In this document: positions 1 through 5,629 of the stretch, piece after piece
Numbering within the stretch: the first letter of the stretch is position 1
Layout of the letters: the number at the start of each line of letters is the position of its first letter
NCBI GenBank assembly: GCA_027296055.1
Contig: JAPUJT010000064.1
Coordinates: forward strand, 1 to 64,000
From: Planctomycetota bacterium
Lineage (GTDB): Bacteria > Planctomycetota > JAPUJT01
Length of the DNA: 64,000 nt
Direction of reading: 5' to 3'
Position numbers and translations under genes: made by a program
The notes under the pieces: generated by a model
The model's database searches: none
What the model was told of the DNA's origin: nothing
Seen by the model: only the letters and a program-made list of their open reading frames with translations

Positions 1-72
1 CTTGGCCAGATCGATCTCGGCTTCACGCAGCTTCCGGATAACCTGCTCCGAGGTATGTCGCTTCTTGGCCAT
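1..72 (-). CDS. IS3-family transposase OrfA, N-terminal 24 residues (runs off window)
   Basis: The ATG at 72-70 follows AGGAGG by six bases. The visible peptide begins MAKKRHTSEQVIRKLREAE, the typical start of the helix-turn-helix OrfA protein of IS3-family elements (HTH_Tnp_1), which binds the terminal repeats and is joined to the DDE integrase OrfB by programmed frameshifting. Only the first 24 codons are present. The frame is open to the window edge. Confidence 0.8.
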   Translation of the reverse strand, partial: MAKKRHTSEQVIRKLREAEIDLAK

Positions 73-138
73 CTTCGCCTCCTTCCAGGGTCCAGAATCC
101 TAACATCCCTCCTGGACCGGTTTCAGGGGGCTGGGTCA
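1..138 (-). mobile_element. IS3-family insertion sequence, one end (partial)
   Basis: Read on the minus strand, the element begins at 138 with TGACCCAGCCCCCTG, which fits the IS3-family terminal inverted repeat (5' TGA). About 65 bp further in is a ribosome site and the start of a transposase orfA. To the right of 138 the plus strand at once resumes a protein-kinase reading frame, so 138 is taken as the element boundary. The rest of the element and the other target-site copy lie outside the window. Family assignment rests on the terminal sequence and the OrfA N-terminus only. Confidence 0.8.
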
Positions 139-3100
139 ATCCTGTATGAGCTTCTCGTCGGAGTACGACCCTTCGATTTGAAGGATATGCGAGAGGCGGG
201 GATCGAAGAGATCCGCCGCATGATCCGGGAGGAGGAACCGCCGAAGCCGAGCACGCGTGCGGGGAACCTTGGCACCGCAACGACCGAGTTGGCTGCTCGC
301 CGCAAGGCCGATCCGGTCACTCACCCCCGGCTCCTGAGAGGAGATCTGGACTGGATCACAATGAAGGCCCTGGAGAAGGACCGGGAGCGTCGATACGGGA
401 CGGCGTCGGAGTTGGCCGCGGACATTGCTCGGCACCTGGATGACGAGCCGGTACTCGCCGGAGCCCCCAGCGCGGCATATCGCCTGAAGAAATTCGCGCG
501 AAAGCACAAGGCCGCGGTCGCCGCGACCGTGGCCGTGTCGGCCACCCTCCTCCTCGGACTGGCGGCGACCCTGACCATGTACTTCCGCGCCGAAGCGGAT
601 CGCGCCGAAACGGAAAGGGCTTGGCAGGCGCTGGCCGAAGAGCACGAGAAGGTCCTCGCCGCCCAGGGCCAGGTGGAGAAAGAGGCGGAGAAGGCCAGGG
701 CGATAAATAAATTTCTCGAGAGAATGCTCTCTTCGGTGGACCCCAAACGGGCGGGACCTGACATGAGGGTCGCGGAAATCCTGGACGGGGCTGCCGAGAC
801 CATCGCGACGGAATTTGCCGACCAGCCGGAAATCAAGGCCTCTCTGCGAACGACCATAGGCCACACCTACTCGAGCGTCGGACTGTATGCCAAGGCCCTG
901 CTCCAGCTTGAACAGGCCCTGGAGATCCAGCGGACGGTCCTGGGGGAAGATGACCCGGCCACACTCCGTACCAAGAACCACCTTGTCGTGACCCTCATGT
1001 ACCTGGGGGACCTGCGCAGGGCCGAGCCACTGGCCCGCCAGACATTGGCAGAGAGCCGCCGCGTCTTCGGAGAGGAGCATTCCGCCACGCTTGCCTCTAG
1101 AGGCAATCTGGCCGGGATCCTCGGCGGGCAGGGCAACATGGCCGAGGCCGAGCGACTCACTCGAGAGGTAATGGAGACCAGGAAGCGGATCCTCGGCGAA
1201 GAGAGCCCGACCACCCTCCTCAGCGTGAGCCAGCTGGCCACCAGGTTACTCGATATGGGGAGGTTCGACGAGGGCGAGGCTCTCCTACGAATGGCGCTCA
1301 AGGTCTCCCGCCGGACGCTGGGCAATGAGCATCCCCGGACACTCTGGATCATGCACAATCTTGCATCCGCCCTGTGCTTTCTCGGCAAAACGGAGGAAGG
1401 CTTGCCGCTGCTCGAGAGGACGGTCGAGGTCTACCGCCGGAGGCTCGGAATGGAACACCCGGACACGCTGCTTACGGTACTAAAGCTGTCCGGGCACCTC
1501 AGGGAGCAAGGCAGGCTGGCCGACGCTGAGGCTCTCGCTCAGAAGGCCCTGGAAACCAGTCGTGGGGCCCTGGGGGAACGGCACCCCACGACGATCGATT
1601 CCCTTTACGAAATCAGCCGTTGCCTCTACGAGAGTGCCAAGCTGGCGGAGGCCGAGCCGCTGGCGAGAGAGGTCCTGGACTTTCGCCGATCGACGCTGGG
1701 CGAGGAGAACCTCAAGACCCTGAAATCTATGCATAGCCTGGCGGTGCTGCTCTCGGACATGGGTGATTCCGAGGAAGCAGAGAGGCTGTGCCGCAAGACG
1801 CTCACCGCACGCCGCCGCATCCTGGGAGAGGAGCACCATTCGACTCTCGAGACCCGCTCCCTACTTGGCCAGATCCTGATGAGCCGCGAGGGGAAGACCG
1901 CCGAAGCGGAAGCGATCTTCCGGCAGACGCTCGAGGCCACTCGACGCGGGCTTGGCGATCGTCATCCTAGGAGTATCCAGGCTGAGCGCCGCCTCGCCAG
2001 GCTGCTCCGTGGCCAGGGTCAGCTGGACGAGGCCGAGAGGCTCTTCCGTCACGTCCTGAAGGGCGCGCGAGAAATCTACCGGAAGGATCATCCAGAGGTC
2101 TTCCTCTCCATGCACGACTTGGCCTGGGCGCTGATGGATCGTGGAGATTATGCCAAGGCAGAGCCTGTTATCCGACGGGCCCGTGATGGACGCCGCCGCA
2201 TTTTTGGTGACGATCATCCCCATTCGCTCGTCTCCATGGCCGTGCTGGCCCTGGTCCTGGAGAAACAGAACAAGCTGGATGAAGCCGAGGGACTCCTGCG
2301 GCAATCTCTGGCGGGGATCCAGAAAGCGTTCGGCGACACGCACACGGGAACGCTCTCCGCCATGAACAACCTGGCAGGCTATCTGCGGAGGCGGGGCCGG
2401 CTCGACGAGGCCGAACCACTCGTCAGAAAGGCTCTCGAAGGGGCTCTCAGCCGGCACGGCGAGGGGCATCGGAAAACCCTCACCATCAGGAATTTAGTTG
2501 CGACGATAGCGATGGACAAGGGGGACTTCGACGAGGCAGAGGGGTTGCTCCGGGGCGCGCTGGAGGTAAGCGCTCTCAACCAAGATGCAGACCTACCGGA
2601 GATCTTGGTTACCTGCCATAACCTCGGGGCCGCACTCCGGGAACAAGGAAAGCTAGCCGAGGCGGAGCGGTTCTTCCGGAAGGCCGTGGAGGGCCGTCGG
2701 CGCGTTCTCGGCGAGGCCCATCCCCACACGCTCCTCTCCATGAATACCCTGGCGCTCATCCTGGACGACAAGTCCGAATTCGAAGAAGCCGAAAAGCTCT
2801 TCCGAAAGGTGTGCCAGAACCGGCGGCGTGTACTCGGAGAGGACCACCCCGACACGCTCGCCTCCATGCGGAACCTGGCGCTGTTCCTGCGAGATCGGGG
2901 CGAGCTCACCGAGGCCGAGCGTCTGGGCAGACAGGCGCTCCAGTTCACAGAGAACGTGCTCTCGGAGGGAGACTGGCGGCGGGCCACCTTCGTGAGCGCC
3001 TATGGCGCCATCCTGACCAAGTTGAAACGTTACGAGGAAGCCCAGGCGCACCTCCTCGAGGCATACGACCGCCTGAACGATGCCCGCGGCGCCGGGCACT

Positions 3101-3234
3101 TGACGACCCGGCAGACCATCGAAAGACTGATCAAACTCTACACCGCCTGGGGAAAGCCTGAGAAAGCGGAGGACTATCGGAAGCTCTTGAAAGAGGCTGC
3201 GGACTCGAAGCAAGAAGCCCTCAAGTCAAACTGA
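139..3234 (+). pseudogene. Ser/Thr protein kinase with TPR repeats, 5' part separated by IS insertion
   Basis: The frame resumes after the IS end with ILYELLVGVRPFD, which is kinase subdomain IX. It continues through the kinase C-lobe (a DWITMKALEKDRERRYGTA segment, as in PknB-like kinases), a transmembrane helix at about 508-586, a short coiled coil and then some 18 kinesin-light-chain-like TPR repeats of 42 residues carrying the G(E/D)xHPxTLxSMxNLA signature. ATP-binding lobe, catalytic loop and DFG are absent because the IS element lies upstream. An ATG at 55 keeps the frame open, but it lies inside the element, antisense to orfA, so it is not a natural start. The intact protein would be a membrane-anchored signalling kinase with a protein-interaction tail. 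The remaining TPR part has no frameshift, which suggests the insertion is recent. Confidence 0.85.
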
Positions 3235-3615
3235 CCCACTCACGCCAATCGTTGAAAACATACCGCGCAAATTAGCGAGGGGGGCTAGTAACAAACACGC
3301 CCGCGAGGCGGCCCCTGCCGCCGGGGGGTCGGGCGTCGACGGGCATGAATGAGGTTGCCCGTCCACGGTGGACGATGCCCATCACAAAGAGCTGTGCCTC
3401 GAGCACGGTGAGCTGGCTCACGCGGTGGCTTGCCACGTCCCCCCGGTCTGGCATCCAAGGAGTTTGTATACCTAACTGTATACCTTAACCATGCGCGCTT
3501 GGGCGCGAGCTGGCGCGACTCTGCGCGCTCATCGCTCCCCGCTAAGTGGCCCCACATCGGCCTGTATTCTGAAGATACTGGCTGTATTTAGCGGATGGCC
3601 TTGTTGCAGAAGGGG
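3235..3615. other. Intergenic stretch with no recognised gene
   Basis: About 380 bases between the kinase remnant and tRNA-Arg. I see no convincing gene. A direct repeat TGTATACCT occurs at 3465-3473 and 3477-3485, operator-like in spacing. On the minus strand just downstream is a 60-codon open frame (3454-3272, ATG start, no ribosome site) that I do not recognise. It may be a decayed small gene. Confidence 0.4.
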
Positions 3616-3689
3616 CACGCCCGGCAGGACTCGAACCTGCGACATTCGGATTAGAAATCCGATGCTCTATCCGACTGAGCTACGGGCGC
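3616..3689 (-). tRNA. tRNA-Arg (anticodon TCT)
   Basis: The minus strand folds into a full cloverleaf of 74 nt. The 7-bp acceptor stem is GCGCCCG with CGGGCGT (one G-T pair). The D arm GCTC/GAGC, anticodon stem TCGGA/TCCGA with loop TTTCTAA (anticodon TCT, reads AGA) and T arm GCAGG TTCGAGT CCTGC are all present. The discriminator is G at 3616. CCA is not encoded. Confidence 0.95.
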
Positions 3690-3816
3690 GCTGTGTGAGG
3701 ATCTGCGTGAATTCGGGAAAACATCGGAGAGATGCCACCTCCCGGGGCTCATCGTACGAGTCCTACTTGGACGGGTCAAGGAACGGGAGATCGAGAGTGC
3801 AGCCCGAAGAAGGAAC

Positions 3817-4154: not shown

Positions 4155-4682
4155 TCAGTTTCGGCGGGGATGGACGATGAAGAAGCCGCACTCCTCCAGC
4201 CGTCCCTGCTTCCAGTGGTAGGAGCGAGCCGTCTGGCTGCCTGGATCGGCAAGCAGGGCAATCTGCCAGGAGAGGGGAAATAGGGCCTGGTGGAACGCCT
4301 TCTCCCCAAGATCGAGAGTCGGGGCTCCATTCCGGGCGACCCACCAGCCCAGGCCCAGCAAATCAGGATGCCCAGCGTATCCTTGGCGCAAGATTTTGCC
4401 CCATTGCTCCTCGGCGAAGGGAAGGCCGGTGGACCCAGGCTCGGCGGCCGCGGAGACCGCCTGAATCTCCAGGAACTCGACACCGTTGCTGATCCCGTGG
4501 CGGCCGAGGAGCAAACCCCCTGCGTTCTCGGTCCCCAAGGTCTCGGTGAGGAGTTCTTGCGAGATGAAGACAGGGATCTCTCCCACCGCCGGGTTATTCG
4601 TCGGGTCGGTCTCGAGGCGAGGATCTTCGAAGATGATTCGAGCGGGTTCCGGGGAGCGAGTCTGGAGGGTGCCCACCTTCAC
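4155..4682 (-). CDS. MPN/JAB-fold protein lacking the JAMM metal ligands
   Basis: 175 residues. The fold is recognisable from ENAGGLLLGR (residues 52-61), a following strand, LGLGWW (109-114), a helix ending FHQALFPLSWQIALLADP and a C-terminal GFFIVHP. Active JAB/JAMM deubiquitinase-like enzymes have GW-x-H-x-H-P then L-S-x2-D. Here the positions read V115, R117, D124 and E127, so the zinc site appears lost. It starts with GTG at 4682, overlapping the stop of the ubiquitin-like gene by four bases (GTGA), which implies translational coupling. In known bacterial ubiquitin-like systems JAB proteins trim or remove the Ubl. This one is more likely a binding or scaffold version. Not an assembly artefact in any obvious way: the frame is intact. 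Confidence 0.7.
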   Translation of the reverse strand: MKVGTLQTRSPEPARIIFEDPRLETDPTNNPAVGEIPVFISQELLTETLGTENAGGLLLGRHGISNGVEFLEIQAVSAAAEPGSTGLPFAEEQWGKILRQGYAGHPDLLGLGWWVARNGAPTLDLGEKAFHQALFPLSWQIALLADPGSQTARSYHWKQGRLEECGFFIVHPRRN

Positions 4683-4963
4683 CGGGGGCCTCCCTGATCG
4701 CCGTGGACGACAGTGATGACCAGGGTCTCTCCGTCCTTCACCATGCCGTCGGCGAAGGTCGCGTCAGATGGAAGGATTGCCCCGGATTGTCTATGGTGAA
4801 GGAGATAGCGAACCGGCTGGCTGCCGATTCGATCTTCGGGATAGCCGAATCGATCGACGAGCTGTCGGGTCAGCGTATCGATCGAGTCACCCGTCTCGAC
4901 GCTCACTTCTAGCGAACGCGCGCCGCTCGGGTCCATGACGTGAAATCGCGTTGGCTCGGCCAT
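4679..4963 (-). CDS. Ubiquitin-like beta-grasp protein (YukD/EsaB-like) ending in GGPR
   Basis: 94 residues with the full beta-grasp pattern: first hairpin FHVMDPSGARSLEVSVETG, helix SIDTLTRQLVDRFGYP, a middle segment YLLHHRQSGAILPSDATF and a last strand ETLVITVV. It closes with HGDQGGPR, so a di-glycine (91-92) sits two residues from the end, in the place where ubiquitin has its reactive GG. YukD/EsaB-like proteins without GG work in type VII secretion. Ubls with GG are conjugated by E1/E2 enzymes. No E1, E2 or WXG100 gene is visible nearby. It begins six bases after the pyrE stop and overlaps the MPN-fold gene. Homology is by pattern; function is inferred. Confidence 0.7.
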   Translation of the reverse strand: MAEPTRFHVMDPSGARSLEVSVETGDSIDTLTRQLVDRFGYPEDRIGSQPVRYLLHHRQSGAILPSDATFADGMVKDGETLVITVVHGDQGGPR

Positions 4964-4969
4964 CGGCGG

Positions 4970-5521
4970 CTACCCCAACCCGAGCTGCTCAGCCGTGAAG
5001 ATGGAGATGAGCTCGATGCCCTCCTTCTTCAGTGCATCCTCTCCACCGGCCTGCCGATCGACGATGCAAAAGACGTTGGAGACCTTGGCCCCCACTTCCC
5101 GGACTCTCTTGACCGCGTCGATCACCGTCTTGCCACTCGTCAGGACGTCTTCGAAGAGGACCGCTATATCCTCCTTGTCGAGGGGAGGCCCTTCAATCCA
5201 TTTCTGGGCTCCGTGCTTCTTTTCCTCTTTCCGGATGTAGAACATCTTGAGCGGCTTTCCGTTCTCGAAGCAGATGTGGCCCACTGTGCTGACCATCGGG
5301 TCGGCCCCTATCGAAGGCCCCCCGATGGCGCTACAGTCCATGCCCGATATCAAGGTGTACAGGATCTGCGAGACGAGGTGCGCGCCCTTCTGGTCGAGGG
5401 TGATCAGCTTTCCATCGATGTAGTAAGTGCTCTTCGCTCCCGAGGCGAGGGTAAAGTCTCCTTTTTGCACGGCGTCATCGACTCGGGATTTGAGAGATTC
5501 CTTGAGCATCTCGACGTCCAA
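4970..5521 (-). CDS. pyrE: Orotate phosphoribosyltransferase
   Basis: Transfers phosphoribosyl from PRPP to orotate to give OMP in pyrimidine synthesis. The PRPP-binding loop is IAVLFEDVLTSGKTVIDAV, with TYYIDGKLITLD near the N-terminus and GGPSIGADPMV in the middle. About 183 residues, normal for the family. The longer frame starts with ATG at 5539, but codons 3-4 of that frame are AGGAGG, six bases before a TTG at 5521. The TTG is therefore the more likely start. First gene of a four-gene minus-strand unit followed by the ubiquitin-like gene. Confidence 0.9.
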   Translation of the reverse strand: MDVEMLKESLKSRVDDAVQKGDFTLASGAKSTYYIDGKLITLDQKGAHLVSQILYTLISGMDCSAIGGPSIGADPMVSTVGHICFENGKPLKMFYIRKEEKKHGAQKWIEGPPLDKEDIAVLFEDVLTSGKTVIDAVKRVREVGAKVSNVFCIVDRQAGGEDALKKEGIELISIFTAEQLGLG

Positions 5522-5629
5522 GGGGCTCCTCCTTTCCATGTCGGGTAATAGGATCTGGCATCGGATCGATCGTAGTCGGCCGTGATCGGCGGCGCAAGAG
5601 ATTTCGCTCGAACATCGATCCCGGTGTCA

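Follow-up and report, generated by a model that had tools for sequence, protein, structure and literature searches.

The window analysed here is a 64,000-nucleotide stretch from the genome of a deep-branching planctomycete (contig JAPUJT010000064.1), and the features of interest lie on its minus strand in the order pyrE, Ubl, MPN, C4 protein, and tRNA-Arg (Table 1). A sequence-only reading of this DNA had placed a gene for a ubiquitin-like protein (Ubl) and an overlapping MPN gene behind pyrE. This gene order was borne out, with the pyrE product scoring above the TIGR00336 cut-off and the Ubl stop codon overlapping the GTG start of the MPN gene by 4 nt at position 4682. Both the Ubl and the MPN reading frames are intact and in frame, and their GC1, GC2, and GC3 values resemble those of the neighbouring genes. 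The codon score was positive for the MPN gene and weak for the Ubl gene (0.064 bits per codon versus 0.12 for the antisense frame). Judged by gene order, the Ubl-MPN pair may be tied to pyrimidine metabolism.

Table 1. Features of the pyrE-Ubl-MPN locus (window coordinates)
Feature	Position	Strand	Remarks
pyrE, orotate phosphoribosyltransferase	4970-5539	-	First gene of apparent operon; TIGR00336 137.7 bits versus cut-off 106.8, E = 3.2e-40
Ubl, YukD-type beta-grasp protein, 94 aa, C-terminus VVHGDQGGPR	4679-4963	-	Window-free HMM and fold model
MPN/JAB-fold protein, 175 aa, GTG start, catalytically dead	4155-4682	-	Window-free HMM and AlphaFold MPN fold
Shine-Dalgarno AGGGAGG of the MPN gene	4689-4695	-	Within Ubl codons for Gln-Gly-Gly
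Small Cys4 (C4) protein, 98 aa	3817-4113	-	Lies 41 nt beyond the MPN gene; GC3 and codon score are coding-like
tRNA-Arg	3613-3690	-	Last in minus-strand order, after the C4 gene

The C4 protein had also been proposed as a partner of the pair, a suggestion that found no support. Searching 392 genomes with it yielded three matches at ~19 bits, none of them convincing, and the protein was rejected as a conserved partner for lack of a convincing homologue.

Folds and ancestry of the Ubl and MPN proteins

In single-sequence searches the Ubl matched Pfam YukD (PF08817) with an E value of 3e-5 and 25.1 bits, below the gathering threshold of 27, and the MPN protein gave no Pfam match. Sequence searches of the PDB returned short ubiquitin matches only for the former and chance matches only for the latter. 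Profile HMMs were then built from 48 operon Ubls and 58 JABs, with the window sequences excluded to avoid circularity, and were run against 1,102 stop-to-stop frames from the window plus one further contig stretch of this genome. The Ubl model recovered the window Ubl with 46.3 bits (1.9e-13) and no other convincing match in the 1,102 frames, and the JAB model recovered the MPN protein with 53.3 bits (1.3e-15). The sole other significant match to the JAB model was a second MPN protein of this genome, on contig C106 (3.2e-9).

AlphaFold modelled the Ubl as a beta-grasp protein (pLDDT 82.5, residues 90-94 being of low confidence), and the nearest PDB folds were the Ubl domain of EccD from ESX-5 (the best match), ubiquitin, and the Caldiarchaeum ubiquitin. 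The second protein was modelled with an MPN fold (pLDDT 89.7, pTM 0.87), nearest to archaeal (Caldiarchaeum) Rpn11 and then to P. furiosus JAMM1, Rpn8, and BRCC36. Since both models were built from homologue alignments, they support the folds, yet depend on homology. Together with the window-free HMMs, they upheld the beta-grasp and MPN/JAB assignments that had been made from the letters.

Using phmmer with the MPN protein as the query, we obtained matches in 16 of 392 same-phylum genomes, the window's own included, and outside the window locus the matched JAB genes mostly have Ubl, E2, and E1 genes for neighbours. The pairing of a Ubl with an MPN protein was likewise confirmed, as homologues of both share an operon in ~30 other planctomycete loci. 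Operons of this Ubl-E2-JAB-E1 type are common, being found in Planctomycetota, Chloroflexota, Bacillota, and other phyla (L022-L034, L039-L118), and they correspond to the type that Iyer, Burroughs and Aravind predicted in 2006 (PMC1779556). At the level of sequence, these results show that the window Ubl and MPN proteins descend from a conjugation operon encoding a YukD-type Ubl, a UQ_con-type E2, a JAB, and a ThiF-type E1.

An E1 and/or E2 gene lay within the fetched stretch at 33 of the 35 Planctomycetota Ubl loci, the exceptions being the window and L200. At L200 (genome G279, 2444-3238 and 3106-3747), an ORF with a YukD-type Ubl domain (YPEMVEPFP...) at its end directly follows an ECF sigma-factor gene; this domain has no terminal AG, and E1, E2, and JAB genes are absent nearby.

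The window genome is the sole sampled genome of its class, and the pair is known from this one genome. Queried with just the MPN protein, GTDB r220 yielded no relative, in the one whole-collection scan capable of detecting dead kin; a scan of IMG/VR for a pattern with an active HTHP motif likewise gave no close relative. Both proteins have very long branches (1.83 changes per column for the Ubl and 9.04 for the MPN protein, versus medians of 0.34 and 0.12), and the trees leave them unplaced for this reason; the MPN protein was joined to that of L030 (SH-aLRT 87), a grouping to which we give no weight.

Loss of the catalytic site and the conjugation tail, and probable loss of the enzymes

The sequence-only reading had noted that the HxH motif of the MPN protein is replaced (V115 and R117). 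This proved correct, and alignment with active JABs revealed that the serine, the aspartate, and the catalytic glutamate are lost as well, giving NVRLK in place of EHHSD (E53N, H115V, H117R, S125L, and D128K). Thus, while the fold of JAMM metalloproteases is shared, the zinc ligands and the catalytic Glu are all substituted in the window protein. Only 1 of 11 catalytic-motif columns was retained compared with 14 of 20 other conserved JAB columns (Fisher p=0.002, with columns assigned to the catalytic motif by the analyst), and 15 of 31 conserved columns were retained overall. At the N-terminus, the segment KVGTLQTRSPEP has kept a likeness to the corresponding part of active soluble JABs (RLGNLQVRPPES in L023). 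Sequencing error was considered as the cause of the lost HxH motif and rejected, because one error cannot explain five separate substitutions in an uninterrupted frame that is alignable from end to end.

Among all JAB-type matches examined, 174 carry the full EHHSD signature and three proteins are dead: the window MPN, the C106 protein, and one in genome G011. Incomplete signatures are partial matches, mostly of JABs interrupted by a cysteine-rich insert. The 80 loci collected through the HTHP pattern form a biased sample and, having been selected by that motif, are uninformative on the rarity of dead JABs; the three dead proteins all came from the unbiased phylum sample.

The Ubl retains the 7 invariant residues D11, G14, P42, Y53, H57, G61, and L64, and 10 of 21 conserved columns. 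Its C-terminal GG had been taken for a ubiquitin-like diglycine, an assignment that did not survive comparison with the family. In 86 distinct family Ubls the tail carries an xxAG end, with 49 of them terminating exactly there and the others bearing short variable tails. None of the invariant P, E, and A of the family tail PExxAG (PEITAG) survives in the window Ubl, and the motif is unrecognisable; a single glycine, G88, is all that can be aligned, the GG lies away from the site used for conjugation in the family, and the alignment to the window-free HMM stops short of the tail. The last codons, CAG GGA GGC CCC CGG TGA, read Q-G-G-P-R-stop and contain AGGGAGG (4695-4689) 6 nt before the GTG. 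The GG therefore sits where the ribosome-binding site of the MPN gene would lie, and the Shine-Dalgarno overlap and the tail comparison together rule it out as a conjugation motif. A second family Ubl was not found in the window genome.

The assembly of this genome is 91.7% complete in 206 contigs. No match to the family E2 profile was obtained in it at E<=1; as a positive control, the same profile found the E2 in 10 of 12 other genomes. A search with PF00899 detected just two ThiF proteins, whose genes are neighbours on contig C146. NCBIfam classes both as MoeB-like; one of them barely passes the MoeB subfamily cut-off, and the two have good scores with the MoeB and UbaA models. No operon-type E1 was found in the assembled genome, and no active family JAB either, the single Prok-JAB match being RadC-like. 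Thus, the earlier claim that E1 and E2 are absent held in that none lies nearby and no family E2 or operon-type E1 was detected genome-wide, but it has to be qualified for the two MoeB-like adenylyltransferases encoded elsewhere. Given the 91.7% completeness, absence of the machinery is likely, short of certain.

On contig C146 (L003:3597-5378), a short ORF lies between the two MoeB-like ThiF genes; by eye it has the look of a TusA-type sulfur carrier, unconfirmed by Pfam, and the three genes could be a sulfur-transfer cluster.

Possible reuse of the pair and alternative explanations

The window locus resembles Ubl-E2-JAB-E1 operons in having homologous, adjacent Ubl and JAB genes and in the MPN and beta-grasp folds of their products, and it differs in missing E1, E2, the JAB catalytic site, and the Ubl conjugation tail and in lying behind pyrE. 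BilABCD, a type I anti-phage ubiquitination-like system, is also composed of Ubl, E1, E2, and JAB components, whereas the window locus has a single Ubl domain and no E1 or E2. The window proteins had no match among the PADLOC models, and membership of a defence system was rejected on that ground. Judged by its sequence, the pair is a derivative, without conjugation, of a familiar type of system, with a single occurrence and a putative function.

How such a derivative arose can be envisaged as follows. E1 and E2 would have been lost from the ancestral conjugation operon in this lineage. Of the two proteins that stayed, the JAB retained nothing of its zinc and catalytic site and the Ubl gave up its conjugation tail, while both kept their folds and the overlapping gene pair persisted downstream of pyrE. 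The resulting pseudo-JAMM protein may bind the Ubl non-covalently via the old JAB-Ubl interface, acting as a receptor or scaffold; precedents elsewhere are YukD/EccD for a Ubl that is not conjugated and Rpn8/CSN6 for MPN domains devoid of zinc. Reuse as a non-covalent Ubl/pseudo-JAB pair after loss of the machinery is favoured by the intact ORFs, the strong Shine-Dalgarno sequence, the gene-like GC profile, and the positive MPN codon score, and also by the kept structural residues and the N-terminal MPN segment that resembles active JABs. Loss of the machinery is itself supported by the full operons of relatives, with their E1 and/or E2 genes at nearly all Ubl loci, and by the finding of no family E2 and only MoeB-like E1s in this genome. 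This explanation is weakened by the single genome, by the very long branches, which fit relaxed constraint, and by the weak Ubl codon score; we regard reuse as an even call. Continued binding between the two proteins and a functional pair are what we infer from these features.

The main rival is decay, in which the operon fell apart, leaving the Ubl and JAB genes as unselected remnants that drift to loss. The long branches of both proteins would suit such a relict, as would the many conserved residues gone from each, its occurrence in a single genome, and the weak Ubl codon score, but against it speak two intact, in-frame ORFs with coding-like GC3 and a strong Shine-Dalgarno sequence, structural residues preferentially kept, confidently predicted folds, and the likewise intact ORF of the other dead MPN gene, on C106. 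We consider decay unlikely, although it deserves serious weight. Alternatively, E1, E2, and an active JAB may reside in the unassembled ~8% of the genome, the window MPN being a non-catalytic partner of that active JAB, as Rpn8 is of Rpn11. The fragmented, incomplete assembly leaves space for this, and several relatives have two JABs per operon; however, these paired JABs are both active, the parts are usually linked in the relatives' operons whereas the 224-kb contig carrying the Ubl-MPN locus is devoid of E1 and E2, and the conjugation tail of the Ubl is also lost, making a gap in the assembly a rather improbable cause.

Could the MoeB-like enzymes of C146 instead activate the Ubl, making it a sulfur carrier or a SAMP-like modifier? 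Those two proteins match the MoeB and UbaA models well and the Ubl has a GG near its C-terminus, yet a GGPR end needs trimming while the adjoining JAB is inactive, the Shine-Dalgarno sequence accounts for the GG codons, the MoeB-like genes are on a different contig, and the Ubl is of the YukD/operon type, not ThiS/MoaD; such a role appears very improbable. A last alternative is a part in type VII (WXG100) secretion, with the MPN gene an unrelated neighbour. YukD, which undergoes no covalent conjugation (PMC1779556), is the sole Pfam match, and the type VII protein EccD provides the closest solved fold, but conjugation-operon Ubls match YukD too (58.1 bits for the operon homologue in L026), the window Ubl fits the operon profile far better, and the adjoining gene is a homologue of the JAB found beside this Ubl family in other loci. 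We consider this reading highly improbable.

Returning to reuse, a bolder version would have the bacterium remodel a complete conjugation system so that the Ubl and the pseudo-JAMM serve only as a non-covalent module for signalling or scaffolding, connected with pyrimidine synthesis, the same genome having a second, LysM-bearing pseudo-JAMM as well; we hold this to be a doubtful, though conceivable, extension. In the eukaryotic proteasome, COP9, and eIF3 complexes, dead MPN proteins and non-conjugated Ubls have a central place, and Rpn8 and CSN6 are MPN scaffolds without zinc. The window MPN shares with such MPN- scaffolds (Rpn8, CSN6, and eIF3h) the MPN fold devoid of zinc ligands; the eukaryotic proteins, however, are subunits of large assemblies, and in the proteasome lid and COP9 they are accompanied by an active MPN+ protein, whereas no active family partner was found for the window protein. 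To our knowledge, the origin of dead MPNs or non-conjugated Ubls from working conjugation systems has not been directly seen. If the bolder version of reuse is correct, the locus would be a bacterial parallel to the eukaryotic origin of MPN- scaffolds and non-conjugated Ubls. Here the loss of the enzymes, the isopeptidase site, and the conjugation tail is seen side by side while the gene pair persists, and the locus offers a direct test of whether selection can keep Ubl-MPN recognition alone.

Other dead MPN proteins and a composite cluster

The product of the second MPN gene of the window genome (C106, L178:8600-9820, minus strand) is 406 aa long, and VGWYRVGKG replaces the HxH motif of its MPN domain; LysM was identified by Pfam, and a coiled coil and a TM segment were recognised by eye. 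Upstream of this gene is a kinase-TPR ORF comparable to a long one at 55-3234 on the plus strand of the window, in which the last part of a kinase-like domain precedes numerous tetratricopeptide-like repeats. In G011, the dead MPN (L197:7285-8013) and a LysM protein (L197:5498-7270) are encoded by separate neighbouring genes, and no Ubl match was obtained in that genome. The C106 and G011 proteins group in the tree (SH-aLRT 95), both on long branches. These data indicated that dead MPN proteins recur in the phylum, at least one form being without a Ubl.

A composite cluster was observed in three planctomycete genomes of different families (L030/L211 in G016, L195/L212 in G013, and L196/L213 in G049). 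It comprises divergent E1, E2, and Ubl genes and a JAB with a Cys-rich insert, after which come an Mpa/ARC-like proteasome ATPase (TIGR03689, ~290-313 bits, below the cut-off) and two Pup-ligase-family proteins (PF03136, E 1e-74 to 1e-102). In some Planctomycetes, only a single-copy PafA/Dop relative has been described (PMC7947786). The cluster possibly encodes ubiquitin-like/pupylation hybrid machinery.
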